Assembly: GCA_902768975.1 (NCBI GenBank) | Contig: CACXMZ010000005.1 | Location: forward strand, 62,001-126,000 | Source of the DNA: an uncultured Coriobacteriaceae bacterium | Lineage (GTDB): Bacteria; Actinomycetota; Coriobacteriia; Coriobacteriales; Eggerthellaceae | Direction: 5' to 3' | DNA: 64,000 bases | Shown here: positions 29,521-37,306 of the stretch, piece by piece | How positions within the stretch are numbered: the first letter of the stretch is position 1 | Layout of the letters: each line of letters opens with the position of its first letter | The notes under the pieces: generated by a model | Database searches by the model: none | What the model was told of the DNA's origin: nothing | What the model saw: only the letters and a program-made list of their open reading frames with translations | Program-made: the position numbers and the translations under genes

Positions 29521-30240
29521 ATGAACGATTCTGCGCCCCAGGGCACAGTTAAAGAAACTGAAACTCAGCGCGCCGCCAAGGCGCGTCTTGCCGTTTACGA
29601 CTTTGACGGTACCTGTATTACGGGTAATTCACCCGTTATGTTGGTAAAGCATCTGTTCCGCGACGACTTACTGAGCGTGAAGCAAGCTCTCGACATTAGC
29701 CTGTGGGCCCTTCGTTACAAGTTCCGTCTTCCGCAAAACGAAAGTTCGGTGCGTGCCAAAGTCTTTAGGCCCTTCGAAGGCCGTTCCAAGGCCGACGTCG
29801 ATGAATATCTGCGTTTGTTCTACGACGAAGTGGTCAGCCCACGGTGGCGCCCCGCGGCGGTAGCAAGCATGCGTGAGCGCAAGGCCGAAGGCTGCCACGT
29901 CATGGTAGTTTCTGCTTCCTGGCAAGCCATTGTGGACCGCGCGCGTGAAGAATATGGCTTCGACTGCGCCCTGGCCACCAATATGGTAGTTGACCATGTT
30001 GGAAACTATACGCGCCAAGTCGACGGCCTTCCCGTTGAAGGGGGAGAAAAGCTTCGTGTTATCCAGCGCTATGCCGACGAACGCTTTGGCCCCGGGAATT
30101 GGGAACTGGCCTACGCCTACGGCGACCACCATTCCGACCGTGCTCTCTTGGCTGCTGCGGCTCATCCCTTTGCCGTGACTCCCGACAAGCCTCTTTCACG
30201 CACGGCCCGTTCTTGCAATTGGCCCATTCTTGACTGGTAG
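29521..30240 (+). CDS. HAD-superfamily phosphatase, subfamily IB (SerB-like)
   Basis: 239 residues. Motif I is YDFDGTCITGNS with the nucleophilic Asp; motif II is in MVVSASWQAIVDR; motif III and the acidic pair follow in AYAYGDHHSDRALLAAA. Subfamily IB includes phosphoserine phosphatases and lipid phosphate phosphatases; the substrate here is not clear. ATG at 29521 follows GAAGG. The stop codon falls inside a 7-bp palindrome (GACTGGT/ACCAGTC, 30232-30250). Confidence 0.82.
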   Translation: MNDSAPQGTVKETETQRAAKARLAVYDFDGTCITGNSPVMLVKHLFRDDLLSVKQALDISLWALRYKFRLPQNESSVRAKVFRPFEGRSKADVDEYLRLFYDEVVSPRWRPAAVASMRERKAEGCHVMVVSASWQAIVDRAREEYGFDCALATNMVVDHVGNYTRQVDGLPVEGGEKLRVIQRYADERFGPGNWELAYAYGDHHSDRALLAAAAHPFAVTPDKPLSRTARSCNWPILDW

Positions 30241-30405
30241 GGAACCAGTCTGCTGGCACCTCTTAGGCGCGCCATATCTACCGTTCGCATGACTAGACTA
30301 TGACAAATTAGAAAACTTTGCCATTTTGCCCTGTGCATTTCCTACTAATAGGTAAAATGATACCCAAAGCATGTCAATCAACGTAGTATTAAGGAGGTGG
30401 GCTGC

Positions 30406-31893
30406 ATGTTTGGAAAAGACCATGGTTCGTTTGGCCCACCAAGTTCAAACGACGAATTATTCGACTCTTGTTCAAACATTTTAGAGCTTGCTGAACAGGC
30501 TCTTTCCGAAGGCGACCTGGCTCAGGCAAGCCATCTATACTTGGCGGCATTCGACGCGTCTGAAAATATTGGAACGGGTGCCTACCAGCCTGCCATCGAC
30601 GGCCTTCGCAAGGCCTGGGACGCAGCCTGCACACTTAAAGACCGCGCCTTGGCGGAACATATTTTTGAAAAGCTCGAACCATTTTCAACGAGTGAAGAAG
30701 TGGCTGAACACGCCGAAGCGTTGCAGCGTCTTGCTTTGGACAAGCTTGAAGAATTTGGTTTTTCACGCGAAGACCTTCAAGACATGGCCGACATGGTTTC
30801 CGAAGACTTCATTGGGGCGTTTAAGGAAAACCAAGGTCCTGAAGCGGTGGTTGCTCAGGTTCTTTCTGTTGGAAAGAACGAGATTCGGCCCCTTAAGAGC
30901 CCGCTTTCATGGCCTCATGCCTCTCAGGCATCTGAGCAGGAAATAGGCCAGGAAGGTCCTGGGGCGCCACAGAATCCCGAAGACTTTACCTATGCTGACC
31001 TTATTGGCTTTGACCATGCCATCGACGCTATGAACAAGCGCGGTATTGGTCTTGCGGGCGACGAAAAGTTCGACGAATTCATGAATACGCTCAGCCGTCG
31101 TCATGGCATCAGTTCGCTTCCCGCCTTTGAAACCTTGCTCTTCCGTTCGCCTTCGCGTGAAGACGCGAACCAGTTCATGCTTTCTACGTCTAAAGAAATT
31201 GGCGTGCCTTCGGTTCGCATGTACATGGAAGAAACTCCCATGGGTTTCCCCGTTCTTTGCATATTGACCACGCCCGACTTTAAGATGAACCCCATTCGTG
31301 GCGGCTTTGGTGGCCCCGGCATTCTTATGCTTGAAGACATAGACATTTGGGGTATGCCATTTTCTAACTCCATCGAAGAAGCGGAAGGCATGCCGTACCA
31401 TATGCAGCTTTCCCGCGGGGCGCGCGAGGCGGTTATGTTTATTCGTTCGGCGGTCGAAAACCCCGAAGTCCAAGTTATGGCCACCTGTTCTTCGCATGTG
31501 GAACTCGACGAATTCTTCGCCGAATTGCTTCACCCGGTAGACGCATTTGAACTGGCCTTGCCCGACGAAGAAGAACGCGCAGCGATTTTCGAAGACATCT
31601 ATAGCCTTTACCCGTCCATGCGCCTTCTGAAAAGCGACGATCTAATTCGCCTGACGGCCAACCTTTCGCGTTTTGACCTTTATATGACGGCACGCGAAGC
31701 GGTCGACGAAGCCTTTAAGAGCAGCGTTGAAAAGCGCGCATATGTACCGGTTACTCGCGACAACTTCTATAACAAAATTGCCGCTTATCAGCCCCTCGAT
31801 TCGGCTGAGTATTTGGAACTTGAAGAACGTGCCGTTGAAAGCCTGCGTCATGACCTTGAAAGCGTTGACGACCTTTTGAAAGGAAACGAATAA
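30406..31893 (+). CDS. AAA+-like protein without a Walker A motif, with a TPR-like N-terminus
   Basis: 495 residues, not recognised as a named family. ATG at 30406 has AAGGAGG 8 nt upstream; a GTG at 30397 lies inside that site. Residues 10-110 look helical and TPR-like (SNILELAEQALSEGDLAQASHLYL). After an acidic linker, residues about 190-450 follow an AAA+ layout: FTYADLIGFDHAIDAM entry, a segment in the Walker A place (FETLLFRSPSREDANQFM) with no GxxGxGK, a Walker B-like ILMLEDIDIW near 306, a sensor-1-like VQVMATCSSH near 355, and FELALPDEEERAAIF as after sensor 1 in AAA ATPases. It should not hydrolyse ATP in the usual way; a scaffold or sensing role is inference. The Rrf2 gene starts right at its stop. 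Confidence 0.6.
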   Translation: MFGKDHGSFGPPSSNDELFDSCSNILELAEQALSEGDLAQASHLYLAAFDASENIGTGAYQPAIDGLRKAWDAACTLKDRALAEHIFEKLEPFSTSEEVAEHAEALQRLALDKLEEFGFSREDLQDMADMVSEDFIGAFKENQGPEAVVAQVLSVGKNEIRPLKSPLSWPHASQASEQEIGQEGPGAPQNPEDFTYADLIGFDHAIDAMNKRGIGLAGDEKFDEFMNTLSRRHGISSLPAFETLLFRSPSREDANQFMLSTSKEIGVPSVRMYMEETPMGFPVLCILTTPDFKMNPIRGGFGGPGILMLEDIDIWGMPFSNSIEEAEGMPYHMQLSRGAREAVMFIRSAVENPEVQVMATCSSHVELDEFFAELLHPVDAFELALPDEEERAAIFEDIYSLYPSMRLLKSDDLIRLTANLSRFDLYMTAREAVDEAFKSSVEKRAYVPVTRDNFYNKIAAYQPLDSAEYLELEERAVESLRHDLESVDDLLKGNE

Positions 31894-32427
31894 ATGGAAC
31901 TGACTCGCCGTTGTGACTACGCCTGTCGTATTTTGCGTTCTGCCTATCGTCATGGCGACGACTACGTGTCGATTGCCGACGTGTCTGAAGAAGAAGAAAT
32001 TCCCTACGCTTTTGCGCGTACTATCCAGCACGACTTGGCTACCGCAGGTTTTGTGAAAACCGTACGTGGCGCCCATGGGGGGCTTGCTCTTTCTATTGAC
32101 CCTGCCGACACGACCATCCTAGACGTACTCCGTGCCTTGCAAGGCCCCGTTACCGTGGCGCCCTGCGCGGTCGACCCCGAAACCTGTTCACTTTCTGACG
32201 GCTGCACCTTTAATCGCGTGTGGATTGCCGCCGACCAAGCCCTCGAAACCTTGTTCGGGTCTATCACGCTTAAAGATGTTTTCGACGGTTCGCCAGATGG
32301 GGCGTTTCTAGACGAAGCCCGCGAAGCAACGTCTTCCCATGTTCTTGCCAGCATAGACGAATTGCTTTCAGGTAAATCTCCCATTTCCTGTGCGCAATTT
32401 CAAACCGAGTCTTCCATTGCCCAATAA
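31894..32427 (+). CDS. Rrf2 family transcriptional regulator
   Basis: 177 residues. Winged helix-turn-helix from residues 1-75 (MELTRRCDYACRILRSAY, later FVKTVRGAHGGLALS), which is the standard Rrf2 start and wing. The sensing loop holds three Cys with Fe-S-type spacing (PCAVDPETCSLSDGC, residues about 91-105), so it probably senses iron, redox or NO through an Fe-S cluster. ATG directly follows the stop of the AAA+-like gene, so the pair is co-transcribed. The hydrogenase and rubrerythrin genes downstream are plausible targets; that is inference. Confidence 0.88.
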   Translation: MELTRRCDYACRILRSAYRHGDDYVSIADVSEEEEIPYAFARTIQHDLATAGFVKTVRGAHGGLALSIDPADTTILDVLRALQGPVTVAPCAVDPETCSLSDGCTFNRVWIAADQALETLFGSITLKDVFDGSPDGAFLDEAREATSSHVLASIDELLSGKSPISCAQFQTESSIAQ

Positions 32428-32443
32428 AGGGAACAATACTGCT

Positions 32444-33301
32444 TTGAAGGCCTTCGAACGGGAGGCCTTTATTTCGCTTGTGTGGGAAATGGGGAAGGCC
32501 CATGCGCGCAACGACTTGCCCTGGCGCTATATTGGCGACCCGTACGCAGTGTATGTTTCCGAAGTCATGCTCCAGCAAACCCAGGTTACGCGCGTGCTTA
32601 AGTTTTGGCCCGCCTGGATGAAGGCTTTCCCCACTATCGATGCCTTGGCAGCTGCCAGTACGGCGGACGTTCTTGAGCGTTGGCAGGGGCTTGGTTATAA
32701 CCGCCGTGCCCTCAGCTTGAAACGCTCGGCTGAAATATGTGCAGCCGAATATGCAGGCAGCATGCCACAGAGCCAGCAAGAGCTTGAAGCGCTCCCAGGC
32801 GTTGGCCCTGCAACGGCGGCTGGTATACAGGCATTTGCTTATGAAAAGCCTGCGGTGTATATCGAAACCAATGTCCGTGCCGTTTTCATTCACCATTTCT
32901 TTGCGGAAGGCGCTGAAAAGGTAAGTGACAAGCAGCTCTACCCACTGGTGGAAGCTACCTGTAGTAGGGAAGAGCCGCGTGCTTGGTATTACGCACTCCT
33001 TGACTATGGCGCGCATCTTAAAAAGTCAATTCCCAACCCAAGCCGTCGCGCCGCTGCCTATTCGCGCCAAAGTGCTTTTGAGGGTAGTGTGCGACAAAAG
33101 CGGTCCTTCCTGCTTCGTGAAGTCCTGGCCCATCCTGGCATTAGCTGTGCGGCCCTTGAAGACTTGCTCAACACAGAAGAACGTGCTGCGGGGAGGGAAG
33201 AGCTCGACTCTGCTTCCGTGCTCGACCTACTCAAACAGCTTGAATGTGAAGGATTTTTCACAATTACTGACAATATCTGCATGATAGACCCCAATTATTA
33301 G
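32444..33301 (+). CDS. mutY: MutY-like A/G-specific adenine glycosylase lacking the Fe-S cysteines
   Basis: HhH-GPD superfamily base-excision enzyme, 285 residues from TTG 32444. The catalytic helix shows SEVMLQQTQVTRVLKFWPAW with the conserved Glu, the helix-hairpin-helix is LEALPGVGPATAAGIQAFAY, and VYIETNVRAVFIHHFF holds the second catalytic acid equivalent. Normal MutY ends this domain with four cysteines around a 4Fe-4S cluster; here YALLDYGAHLKKSIPNPSRR is followed by no Cys. A short C-terminal domain (about 60 residues) replaces the usual MutT-like part. A GTG at 32390 is an alternative start overlapping the Rrf2 gene. Confidence 0.8.
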   Translation: MKAFEREAFISLVWEMGKAHARNDLPWRYIGDPYAVYVSEVMLQQTQVTRVLKFWPAWMKAFPTIDALAAASTADVLERWQGLGYNRRALSLKRSAEICAAEYAGSMPQSQQELEALPGVGPATAAGIQAFAYEKPAVYIETNVRAVFIHHFFAEGAEKVSDKQLYPLVEATCSREEPRAWYYALLDYGAHLKKSIPNPSRRAAAYSRQSAFEGSVRQKRSFLLREVLAHPGISCAALEDLLNTEERAAGREELDSASVLDLLKQLECEGFFTITDNICMIDPNY

Positions 33302-33363: not shown

Positions 33364-33369
33364 TATAAT
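33364..33369 (+). promoter_or_regulatory. Consensus -10 box before rubrerythrin
   Basis: TATAAT at 33364-33369, about 40 nt before the rubrerythrin ATG. A -35 at the right distance is poor (GAGCAG or AGCAGC), which suggests activator help. Confidence 0.5.
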
Positions 33370-33409
33370 GGGTTACATCGTTTCGCAGACGCATGAGAAA
33401 GGAGCTTCC

Positions 33410-33949
33410 ATGGAACTTGCAGGAAGCAAAACTGAGCAGAATTTGCAGACCGCATTTGCTGGTGAATCGCAGGCTCACACTAAGTATTTGTACTATGCGA
33501 GCCAGGCCAAGAAGGAAGGCTACGTACAAATCCAGGCCATTTTTGAAGAAACTGCCAAGAATGAAAAAGAACATGCCAAGCTGTGGTTCAAGCAGCTTCA
33601 TGGTGGCGCAGTGCCCGAGACGCTGGAAAACCTTGCCGACGCCGCTGGTGGCGAAAACTATGAGTGGACAGACATGTATGCTGAATTCGCTGCTACCGCT
33701 CGCGAAGAAGGCTTCGAAAGCCTCGCTGAATTGTTTGACGGCGTTGCTGCTGTTGAAAAAGAACATGAAGAGCGTTATCGCAAGCTTATTGAACGCATCA
33801 ACGCTGGTGAAGTCTTTAAGCGCGACGGCGTAGTTGCCTGGAAGTGCAACAACTGTGGCCATATCCACATTGCCACTGAAGCTCCTATTGTGTGCCCCGT
33901 ATGCGCTCATCCGCAAGCCTACTTTGAAGTACGCTGCGAAAACTACTAG
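33410..33949 (+). CDS. rbr: Rubrerythrin
   Basis: 179-residue peroxide-scavenging protein. The N-terminal diiron four-helix domain has ExxH-type ligands ([28 protein letters not shown], later [11 protein letters not shown] and VEKEHEERY). The C-terminal rubredoxin-like domain has two CxxC pairs, CNNC and CPVC. In anaerobes it reduces H2O2 using electrons from rubredoxin or NADH dehydrogenases. ATG at 33410 has AAAGGAG at good distance; an in-frame ATG at 33368 overlaps the -10 box and was rejected. A strong terminator follows. Confidence 0.95.
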
Positions 33950-34121: not shown

Positions 34122-35651
34122 ATGGACGAGAAGGTCCTCTCGACGGAATTCGAAGAATTGCTTTCTTCGCGTGGGGTAACGCGTCGCGGGTTTTTGCAGT
34201 TGTGCGGAACCATTGCGGCGGCAACGGGTTTGGCCCATATTACGGTGCCCGACGTAGCCCATGCGATCGAAGACTCCGTCATTGGTGCTGCGGAAGGTAA
34301 TTTGTTCCCCGTCATTTGGATAGAGGGTGCTTCCTGCACAGGTTGTACAGAGGCTTTTGCTCAGATTGACGAACCCGACCCTGCAACAGTTGTCCTGGAA
34401 ATGATTTCGTGTAACTACAACGAAACCCTTTCCTTTGCTGCCGGCCATTCAGTTGAAGAAGCTAAGGCACAAACCATTAAGCAGTGTGCAGGCAAGTACG
34501 TGCTGGTGTATGAAGGCGCCCTGCTTGAAGGCTGGGACGGCTGGGCTTTGCGCGTAGCTGAAGAAACTGGTGTAAATGCCTTCCTGGAAGCAGCTGAAAA
34601 TGCCTTCGGTGTCGTTGCTCTGGGTAGTTGCGCTGTTAATGGTGGCTGGATGGGTTCGAAGAAAACGCCCGCAGGCGCTATTGGCTGCCAGGCTCTTATG
34701 GCCAAGCACGGCATTACCACTCCTGTTATTAATATTCCTGGCTGTCCCGCCAATCCCGAATGGCTCGTTGCTGTTTTGGTCGACGTGGTCATGATGGGTG
34801 TTCTTCCTGAACTTAATATCGACAACAAGCCTGCTCTCATTTTTGAACAGGCAATTCATGAAAACTGCCAGCGCCGTGGCCACTTCGAAAACGGCGAATT
34901 TGTTTACAAGTTCGGCAGCGAAGAAGAAAAGATGGGCTTCTGCCTCTATGCTATGGGTTGCCGTGGCCCTCAAACCAAGGCTAACTGCGGCATCGTGCGC
35001 TATAACCGCCGTCGCAGCTGGTGTGTCGAAGCCGGCTCGCCCTGCATTGGTTGTTGCGAAGCGAACCCCATGGACTCGTCACACAACTGGGTCGACGTGA
35101 ATGCTTCATTCCACGAGCGCCATCGCGACCTGCGCATTGGCAATTGGGTAGTGCAACCCCGCACCATAGGTCTTGCAGCTATCGGCATCGTTACCGCTGC
35201 AGTCATTATTCATGGCTTTGGCATGAAGGCTTCCAAGCGCCTGGACGGTGCCATTCGCTTCGAATCGCAGCGTGAATGGGACGCCAAGCATCCTAATGAA
35301 GCTATTGGTTATTATGGCGCCGACCGTACCATCATTCACGAAGATGGCACCAAGGAAGTTATTTCTGCGGAAGAATTCGAAGAAAGAGTACAGGCCGACT
35401 ACGAAAGCACGCTCAAAAAACTCGGAGCTGCGGCCGCAAGTGCGGTAGCTGGCGGCGTCAAAGCAGCTGAAGAAGCTACCGAAGCCACCGCAGAAGAAGC
35501 TCAGGCTGAAACCGTAGAACCGGTTGAAGAAGCTGAAACTGAAGTAGTTGAAGCCCCTGAAGAAACTGAAGCCGAAGCAGTGGAAGCGGCCGAAGAAGCC
35601 GAAGACGCTGTTGAAGAAGAAAACGAAGAATCGAAGGGAGGCCAGGAATAA
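34122..35651 (+). CDS. hyaA: [NiFe] hydrogenase small subunit, Tat-exported, with acidic C-terminal tail
   Basis: Fe-S subunit of a group 1 membrane-bound uptake hydrogenase. The Tat signal has RRGFLQ (residues 21-26) and a probable cleavage near AHA (46-48). Proximal cluster cysteines include ASCTGC (72, 75), GSCAVNGGW and PGCPANPEW; the distal and medial clusters use HENC and GFCLYAMGC, ANC, WCVEAGSPCIGC. A membrane anchor lies at about 348-368. Beyond it about 140 residues extend inside the cell, the last 80 very rich in Glu and Ala; this tail is far longer than in known HyaA/HynB proteins. AAGGAGGTG precedes the ATG. hyaB overlaps by one base. Confidence 0.95.
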   Translation: MDEKVLSTEFEELLSSRGVTRRGFLQLCGTIAAATGLAHITVPDVAHAIEDSVIGAAEGNLFPVIWIEGASCTGCTEAFAQIDEPDPATVVLEMISCNYNETLSFAAGHSVEEAKAQTIKQCAGKYVLVYEGALLEGWDGWALRVAEETGVNAFLEAAENAFGVVALGSCAVNGGWMGSKKTPAGAIGCQALMAKHGITTPVINIPGCPANPEWLVAVLVDVVMMGVLPELNIDNKPALIFEQAIHENCQRRGHFENGEFVYKFGSEEEKMGFCLYAMGCRGPQTKANCGIVRYNRRRSWCVEAGSPCIGCCEANPMDSSHNWVDVNASFHERHRDLRIGNWVVQPRTIGLAAIGIVTAAVIIHGFGMKASKRLDGAIRFESQREWDAKHPNEAIGYYGADRTIIHEDGTKEVISAEEFEERVQADYESTLKKLGAAAASAVAGGVKAAEEATEATAEEAQAETVEPVEEAETEVVEAPEETEAEAVEAAEEAEDAVEEENEESKGGQE

Positions 35652-37306
35652 TGACACGTTCAACTATTGACCCGGTAACACGTATTGAAGGCCACCTTCG
35701 CATTGAAATGGAAGTCGAAAATGGCGTAGTTGCCGACGCTTGGGTTTCTGGCGGTTGTTTCCGCGGTATGGAATTGGTTCTTGAAGACCGCACGCCGGCC
35801 GACGCAGCCATGATTGCACAGCGTATTTGCGGAGTGTGCCCTGTTTCTCATGCCCAGTCTGCTTCCATTGCGGGCGAAAAGGCCATGGGTATTACCATTC
35901 CTAACAATGCTCGTATTATTCGTAACCTGCTTGAAGGCGCTCAGTTCCTTCACAGCCACATTTTGTGGTTCTATAACTTGGCAGCACCCGACTACGTGAA
36001 CCCCATCAATGCACTTAAGGCAAGTGCGGCCGACGCTCACGACCTGGCTGTTGCTGCTGGTACGTCCACCAATACCGACTTGAAGGCCTTGCAAGAGCGC
36101 CTCACGAAATTTGCCAATAATGGGCAGCTTTCAATCTTTAGTGGTAACTGGTTTGACTCCGAAGGCGGTCAGGGCTACAAGCTTCCGCCCGAGCTCGACC
36201 TTATTTGCACGGCGCACTACCTTGAAGCATTAACCATGCAAGCCAAGGCTTCTGAAATTTCTGGCCTGCTTGGTGGCAAGATGCCTCATATTATGACCAT
36301 GGTTCCTGGTGGCACCATGTTTGTGCCGACAGAAGAAAAGCTCGACGACCTGTGGTCGCTCGTTAACGAACTCTATGACTGGGTTTCTTCGACCATGGTC
36401 CAGGACACCATCGCTCTTGTGCCCTTCTACAAGGACGCTCTGAACTGGGGCGGCGGCTGCAAGCGCTATGTGGCTTGGGGTGTATTTGAAGACGCAAGCT
36501 TCGAAATGAACAACCGTTATCTGCCTGCGGGCGTTCTGAAAGACGGTTTGGCTCTCGAAGACGTCAACGAAGACCTTATCAAGGAATACACGGGCCATTC
36601 CTGGTACGAACCCGACGACGTAGAACTGCGCAACCCGCGCGACGAAGGTCTTACCAAGCCGCTCTATACCGAATACAACGTTGAAGACCGTTACAGCTGG
36701 TGCAAGTCCCCGTCTTACGACGGTCAGTGCATGGAAGCTGGTGGCTTGTCTCGTTTGCTCGTTGCATACAAGCGTGGCGTTCCCTTCATCGTTGAACAAA
36801 TCGACGGCTTGCTTGCTACCTTGGGTGTACCGGGCCGCATTGACGTGCTCCAGTCTACGCTCGGTCGTACGGGTGCACGCCAGATTGAAACCCTCTATGT
36901 TGCAACGCTCATGAAGGAATGGGTGGCTGAACTTATTGAAGCTCTGAAGGGTGGCGACTCTGAATTCTTCCGCGATCCTACCACCACGACCGGCGACGGC
37001 ACGGGCTTCTGGGAAGCACCGCGTGGCGCCCTGTATCACACTGAACATGTGAAGGACGGCAGGATTACGGGTTACCAGATTATTATCCCGACCACCTGGA
37101 ATATTGCTCCGCGCGGCCACGATGGCGAACCTGGTCCTATGGAGCAGTCCCTCATTGGTGTTCCCGTCAACGACGTCGAAAAGCCGATCAATGCTCTTCG
37201 TACGGTTCACAGCTTTGACCCCTGTACAGCATGTGCGGTACACATTAGCGAGCCGTCTACGGGTAAGCATTTTGAAACCGTTACGAATCCTTGGGGGGTG
37301 AAGTAA
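35651..37306 (+). CDS. hyaB: [NiFe] hydrogenase large subunit
   Basis: 551 residues. The active-site cysteines are in the L1 motif RICGVCPVSH (Cys60, Cys63) and in the C-terminal DPCTACAVH (Cys525, Cys528). Twenty residues after His531 form the tail cut off by the maturation protease once nickel is in place. No own signal peptide, so it is carried out of the cell by its Tat-signal partner. ATG overlaps the hyaA stop. It would oxidise H2 outside the membrane and pass electrons through the small subunit to cytochrome b. Confidence 0.97.
   Translation: MTRSTIDPVTRIEGHLRIEMEVENGVVADAWVSGGCFRGMELVLEDRTPADAAMIAQRICGVCPVSHAQSASIAGEKAMGITIPNNARIIRNLLEGAQFLHSHILWFYNLAAPDYVNPINALKASAADAHDLAVAAGTSTNTDLKALQERLTKFANNGQLSIFSGNWFDSEGGQGYKLPPELDLICTAHYLEALTMQAKASEISGLLGGKMPHIMTMVPGGTMFVPTEEKLDDLWSLVNELYDWVSSTMVQDTIALVPFYKDALNWGGGCKRYVAWGVFEDASFEMNNRYLPAGVLKDGLALEDVNEDLIKEYTGHSWYEPDDVELRNPRDEGLTKPLYTEYNVEDRYSWCKSPSYDGQCMEAGGLSRLLVAYKRGVPFIVEQIDGLLATLGVPGRIDVLQSTLGRTGARQIETLYVATLMKEWVAELIEALKGGDSEFFRDPTTTTGDGTGFWEAPRGALYHTEHVKDGRITGYQIIIPTTWNIAPRGHDGEPGPMEQSLIGVPVNDVEKPINALRTVHSFDPCTACAVHISEPSTGKHFETVTNPWGVK

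Follow-up and report, generated by a model that had tools for sequence, protein, structure and literature searches.

The locus considered here raises the question of what a protein with the layout of an AAA+ ATPase, and without a Walker A motif, does beside a regulator of the Rrf2 family. The window, that is, the whole stretch of DNA that was analysed (64,000 nucleotides), comes from an uncultured Coriobacteriaceae bacterium. A first-pass annotation, made from the letters only, had proposed that the dead AAA+ module and the regulator form one regulatory device. The protein is a member of a real, well-conserved and unannotated family of pseudo-ATPases, and is referred to below as the pseudo-AAA protein.

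Gene arrangement and domain structure

The pseudo-AAA gene encodes 495 residues and spans 30406–31893 on the + strand, with the ATG at 30406 and an alignment of 75 ortholog rows behind this assignment. A ribosome-binding site, AAGGAGGTG (30391–30399, +), is read from the sequence 6 bases 5′ of this ATG, and a −10-like promoter element, TAAAAT (30353–30358, +), was read by eye and is unscored. The neighbourhood has the + strand gene order ABC-ABC-HAD-(495-aa gene)-Rrf2-MutY-rubrerythrin-hydrogenase. Here, the upstream gene encodes a HAD-family phosphatase (29521–30240, +), a neighbour conserved in 65/79 loci. Downstream, the TAA stop codon (31891–31893) is followed directly, without overlap, by the ATG of the Rrf2-family regulator (177 aa; 31894–32427, +), as had been claimed. 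Next come a MutY-like adenine glycosylase without a 4-Cys Fe–S motif (32390–33301, +), which is usually the next gene when Rrf2 is absent, and then the rubrerythrin (33368–33949) and hydrogenase subunit genes (34122–37306) that had been reported nearby. The two motifs on which the earlier reading was built are also in place, with ILMLEDIDIW at residues 306–315 and PDEEERAAIF at residues 386–395.

Searches of Pfam and NCBIfam with the protein give nothing at E ≤ 1, and its regions are defined by structure prediction, fold searches and alignment. A six-helix, TPR-like N-domain comprises residues 18–140 (30457–30825, +) and is followed by a linker, residues 141–189 (30826–30972, +), and by a degenerate classic-AAA core plus lid, residues 190–465 (30973–31800, +), the lid beginning at PDEEERAAIF (31561–31590, +). 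The AlphaFold2 model, built from 75 sequences, has a mean pLDDT of 83.3 and a pTM of 0.65; most core blocks exceed 90, and the linker is mostly below 60. There is no membrane segment in the protein, the maximum 19-residue hydropathy being 0.8.

Support for the AAA fold comes from both sequence profiles and the model. A profile of 40 homologs matches p97/Cdc48 chains with a best E of 2.8e-15, and the best Foldseek match of the model is Cdc48 (4.1e-7). When approximately residues 190–465 of the model were compared using VIA-align, p97 gave a Z of 13.4 (4.0 Å, 221 residues) and FtsH (1lv7) a Z of 12.9 (3.8 Å, 225 residues), results that, for core and N-domain alike, bear on the fold families listed among the comparisons. 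Residues 190–465 are a classic AAA fold by descent, and the AAA+-like layout previously read from motifs is upheld by a structure prediction that could have returned a non-AAA fold. The best VIA-align matches of the N-domain are mostly TPR chains (top Z 12.4 over 89 residues), so that the modelled N-domain is likely, if unproven, to be TPR-like, in agreement with the first-pass annotation. Foldseek matches of this domain to TPR are weak (E of 0.027 and poorer), and Pfam TPR_12 is found in 1/68 rows, as a weak match at 0.039.

Loss of the ATPase site

The register of the ATPase motifs was set by hhalign to an intact relative, L160, whose GPPGCGKT aligns without gaps to SPSREDAN, the former P-loop of the window protein (residues 248–255; 31147–31170, +). 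All 75 aligned orthologs have an SPAREDAN-like sequence at this site, and GxxxxGK[ST] is present there in none of them. This alignment omits five of the 79 loci: L073 for an in-frame stop, L118 and L148 as truncated, L123 for exceeding 720 aa and L133 for unknown bases. The position of the Walker A Lys is occupied by Ala in 72/75 rows and by Lys in 0/75, there is no Lys at residues 250–258 in the 75 rows, and charged residues occupy the former Gly positions of the P-loop. An intact P-loop in relatives, which was sought because it could have refuted the earlier reading, is rejected. Away from the site, the window protein has no GxxxxGK[ST] either; a chance match occurs in the linker of L147 and another in the N-domain in 1/40 rows of the wider homolog set A1, which omits L033 (in-frame stop).

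The loss of Walker A had been claimed before, and the alignment both confirms and extends it. In the Walker B remnant, ILMLEDIDIW (31321–31350, +), the canonical DE is replaced by ED: the D position is E in 68/75 rows and D in 4/75, and the E position is D in 71/75 and E in 1/75. The sensor-1 position carries Asn or Thr in 8/75 rows, all of them Thr, with Ser in 36 and Ala in 22. The former arginine-finger region (residues 369–384; 31510–31557, +) has no Arg in 75/75 rows, the same being true of residues 368–384, and its finger positions are acidic, residue 373 being D/E in 70/75 and residue 376 being E in 51/75. Walker A, the Walker B order, the sensor-1 Asn and the arginine fingers are shown by these counts to be lost together. 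In the model, a helix (251–265) is predicted to begin almost directly after the first strand, and a predicted strand (282–288) takes the place where the usual AAA order has helix 2 and the pore loop. E252, D253, D313, W315 and P318 are invariant in 75/75 rows. Since the residues that replace the ATPase motifs are themselves conserved, the nucleotide site is, as judged from the aligned sequences, rebuilt under selection and not merely lost.

The fold of residues 190–465, the lid and the order of motifs are shared with p97/Cdc48 and FtsH. The pseudo-AAA protein differs from both in lacking the Walker A Lys, the sensor-1 Asn and the arginine finger, in having ED for DE, and in that a strand replaces helix 2. 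Two TPR-like plus intact AAA proteins of family f23 in the same class, L160 (5269–6570) and L165, have a helical N-part, a linker and an AAA module in like order and retain the GPPGCGKT, DE, N and Arg residues that the pseudo-AAA protein lacks. L160 matches PF00004 at 2.3e-36, and hhalign pairs it with the pseudo-AAA family at 96.6% and an E of 5e-10 over the AAA part, leaving the N-parts of L160/L165 and of the pseudo-AAA protein unaligned to each other. These proteins are possibly relatives of the dead family's ancestor, and an intact TPR–AAA relative in the same class offers a before-and-after comparison of a motor becoming a scaffold.

Degenerate AAA modules are already known. LonC, as reported (PMC3391209), shares with the pseudo-AAA protein a bacterial degenerate AAA module, which in LonC is without ATPase activity; it differs in its Walker-A-like GK, its nucleotide binding and its protease domain. 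The chloroplast FtsHi proteins (PMC8197885) are likewise inactive AAA-family members that have been kept. These are membrane-located pseudo-proteases in which the protease motif is lost, whereas the pseudo-AAA protein has lost the ATPase site and has no membrane segment. The EccC5 DUF also combines a bacterial ATPase fold with a degenerate site, but it lies within a type VII secretion ATPase chain and, in the part of the source consulted (PMC11154593), no TPR-like domain is seen, whereas the pseudo-AAA protein is likely to have one.

Distribution of the gene and its linkage with Rrf2

The pseudo-AAA gene is present in 35/36 genomes of its own family, the one lacking it being 70% complete, and in 42/60 relatives overall; 74 Eggerthellaceae orthologs align over their full length. 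At 1e-10, matches were found in 54/120 genomes of the order sample (26/26 in f1, 24 in f5, 2 in f3 and 2 in f9), with none in families f2, f4, f6, f7, f8 and f10. The class sample holds the full-length protein in 16/119 genomes and matches to the AAA region alone in 12 more, L160 (2.7e-20) among them. At the level of the phylum, 17/296 genomes match at 1e-10, of which 10 belong to the own family; the other seven matches (7.5e-12 to 9.9e-11) are confined to the AAA region and are taken as ordinary AAA ATPases, so that outside the own family no match in the 296 genomes extends beyond the AAA region at this threshold. Within the genomes searched, the gene is shown to be restricted to a small number of families within a single order.

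The protein is under strong purifying selection, as shown by pN/pS values against the nearest ortholog of 0.075 for the N-domain and 0.114 for the AAA core (0.075–0.134 outside the linker, 0.60 within it), and 23 positions are invariant across the 75 rows. A chance ORF was rejected given the full-length orthologs and low pN/pS, a mobile or phage gene given that there was no match in phages or plasmids, and an anti-phage defence protein given that PADLOC returned 0 families at E ≤ 1. Two loci depart from the usual form. In the small genome G013, the frame of the family protein (L058, 6492–7622) is only 384 aa, without the TPR-like domain, and sits elsewhere, beside an endonuclease-III-like gene. 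In a metagenome-assembled genome (L073, 4166–5632), there is one in-frame stop, TAG, near residue 326 of the match, which may be an assembly error.

The Rrf2 protein matches PF02082 with 99.2 bits against a cut-off of 30 (E 2.6e-28). It had been described as having three Cys; the total is six, and what stands is a trio, C91-X6-C98-X5-C104 (32164–32205, +), conserved in 62/62 rows. These residues are putative Fe–S ligands, and by this conserved trio the regulator is assigned to the Fe–S type. The curated NCBIfam cut-offs of the IscR, NsrR, RirA and CymR equivalogs are not reached by the window Rrf2, the best equivalog being suf_reg_Xantho at 68.3 bits against a cut-off of 110.65, with IscR at 58.4 against 207.55. 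The additional Cys 7, 11 and 166 are present in 35, 36 and 28 of 43 family rows and, among the rows listed, are not at these positions in 19 outgroup Rrf2 rows. A literature search, with most subscription journals outside its scope, returned no Rrf2 in Eggerthella lenta or Coriobacteri*, no link of Coriobacteriia with AAA ATPase and tetratricopeptide, and nothing relevant joining Rrf2 with rubrerythrin and MutY.

Neighbouring genes at the 79 named Eggerthellaceae loci were identified by tblastn. Rrf2 adjoins the pseudo-AAA gene in 42 of these, and in 38/41 measurable loci its start lies between −1 and +18 bases of the pseudo-AAA stop. It is absent downstream in 36 loci, where at least 1.7 kb of downstream sequence was covered, one further locus (L148) ending too early to score, and in 31 of the 36 MutY is the next gene. 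When 21 of the 36 Rrf2-less genomes were searched whole, a close Rrf2 was found elsewhere in none, the matches being paralogs of 23–31% identity with a best E of 4.9e-15, and nothing was found in two. The 120 order genomes divide into 44 with both genes, 10 with the pseudo-AAA gene alone, 47 with Rrf2 alone and 19 with neither, Rrf2 being counted at E ≤ 1e-24, the analyst's own cut-off. In f5, 18/24 AAA-holding genomes have Rrf2 within 300 bases and a further genome has it at a distance of 479 bases, and in both f1 and f5 the pseudo-AAA gene is found between HAD and Rrf2. Rubrerythrin is present in only 4/79 loci (about 6 kb or less covered on each side). In families without the pseudo-AAA gene, Rrf2 is beside MutY in 12/12 loci (L166–L176, L180), 11 of which have rubrerythrin and 8 the HAD gene. 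From these loci and the genome counts, it follows that the HAD-Rrf2-MutY-rubrerythrin order is wider than the pseudo-AAA gene. The linkage expected between the two genes therefore recurs widely and is shown to be common, but not obligate, each gene also being found alone. Their action as a single device, the main proposal of the first-pass annotation, is not established.

The constraint on the pseudo-AAA protein is much the same whether Rrf2 is there or not. Mean column entropy in Rrf2-plus versus Rrf2-less rows is 1.38 versus 1.37 for the N-domain and 1.37 versus 1.43 and 1.15 versus 1.09 for the two halves of the core. Of 90 columns that are at least 95% conserved in Rrf2-linked rows, 83 stay at 85% or more in Rrf2-less rows; the remaining seven, R247, R251 and E310 among them, show weaker conservation there, in a comparison that ignores kinship. 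On a quick tree the Rrf2-plus label changes 7 times, with 3 changes forced by the starred branches. In a mirror-tree analysis the partial correlation was 0.546 for MutY, the highest of three neighbours tested, and 0.260 for Rrf2. As this covers 30 loci with non-independent pairs and no significance value attached, it is weakly suggestive of MutY over Rrf2.

Function of the pseudo-AAA protein

Because all ATP-handling parts have been replaced, a passive scaffold is probable. The best explanation, to which a probability of roughly 0.6 is given, is a pseudo-ATPase scaffold consisting of a TPR-like domain, a flexible linker and a rebuilt classic-AAA module, with Rrf2 as its likely regulator. Such a protein would neither hydrolyse ATP nor act as a motor. 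Instead, the AAA module would be a fixed platform for protein binding, and the TPR-like domain, probably peptide-binding, would recruit the client. Rrf2 would regulate transcription of the pseudo-AAA/Rrf2/MutY unit, and lineages that have lost Rrf2 would keep the scaffold under other control. A TAAAAT/TAGAAT element is seen by eye at a like position upstream of many orthologs, and in the window an inverted repeat, GGTA-N6-TACC, lies over TAAAAT, which by eye is not general among orthologs. No conserved Rrf2 operator was seen in the sequences read by eye upstream of the orthologs, so the regulatory step is drawn from gene order. The Rrf2 Cys trio, MutY and the rubrerythrin found in other families suggest an oxidative or iron-stress setting, in which the scaffold and a repair enzyme for oxidised guanine could be produced together.

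Other explanations turn on the same evidence. A direct complex, in which the dead AAA protein binds Rrf2 and sets its activity by redox state, would account for the near-overlapping genes, the adjacency in f5 and the partial correlation of 0.26. Such a complex could exist, but as a main function we consider it quite unlikely, the evidence tending the other way: 36/79 loci are without Rrf2 and none of the 21 searched genomes holds a close copy, 47/120 order genomes have Rrf2 without the pseudo-AAA gene, constraint is unchanged without Rrf2, and the MutY correlation is higher, at 0.55. That correlation, together with MutY being the next gene in most Rrf2-less loci, would suit a protein that assists another enzyme as its accessory or adaptor, the enzyme being either MutY or FtsH. 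The window's genome (G000) has a single 769-aa AAA frame (L160 as query, E ≤ 1e-20), apparently FtsH by its length and likeness to FtsH frames. An adaptor role is nevertheless improbable, given the limits of the mirror tree, the families that hold MutY without the pseudo-AAA gene and the protein's lack of a membrane segment.

A switch gated by nucleotide or another phosphorylated ligand in the rebuilt pocket is a rather doubtful reading. The five invariant residues suit such a pocket and, according to PMC3391209, the degenerate module of LonC binds nucleotide, a point that also stands against the best explanation. However, LonC retains GK in its Walker-A-like motif, and the pseudo-AAA family has no GK, no Lys at 250–258 and charged residues at the P-loop Gly positions. 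In a more speculative scheme, something of a long shot, a bacterial classic-AAA module would have become an ATP-free scaffold for signalling or repair, tied to an Fe–S regulator and to a MutY without an Fe–S motif of its own. The conserved REDA and EDxDxWxxP residues of the former nucleotide site would then recognise either a protein or a redox-state ligand, and the TPR–AAA protein would pass on the iron or oxidative status, to MutY or to the transcription that Rrf2 controls. Functionless decay of an ATPase gene would explain why every ATPase motif is gone, but its probability is next to nil: it is refuted by a presence in 35/36 own-family genomes, a pN/pS near 0.1 and the 23 invariant positions.

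The gene is near-universal and unannotated in a common gut family, and its whole AAA ATPase site has been swapped for other conserved residues. In addition, the Rrf2-plus and Rrf2-minus lineages constitute a natural test of the importance of a neighbouring sensor.

Two minor observations concern cysteines. C-X6-C-X2-C-X5-C, which we take to be the MutY Fe–S motif, is present in 0/71 family rows of the MutY-like protein and in 2/88 rows overall. In the pseudo-AAA family, Cys75 (30628–30630) and Cys285 (31258–31260) are near-invariant, in 68/75 and 71/75 rows, and position 102 is Cys in 61 rows and His in the window protein.
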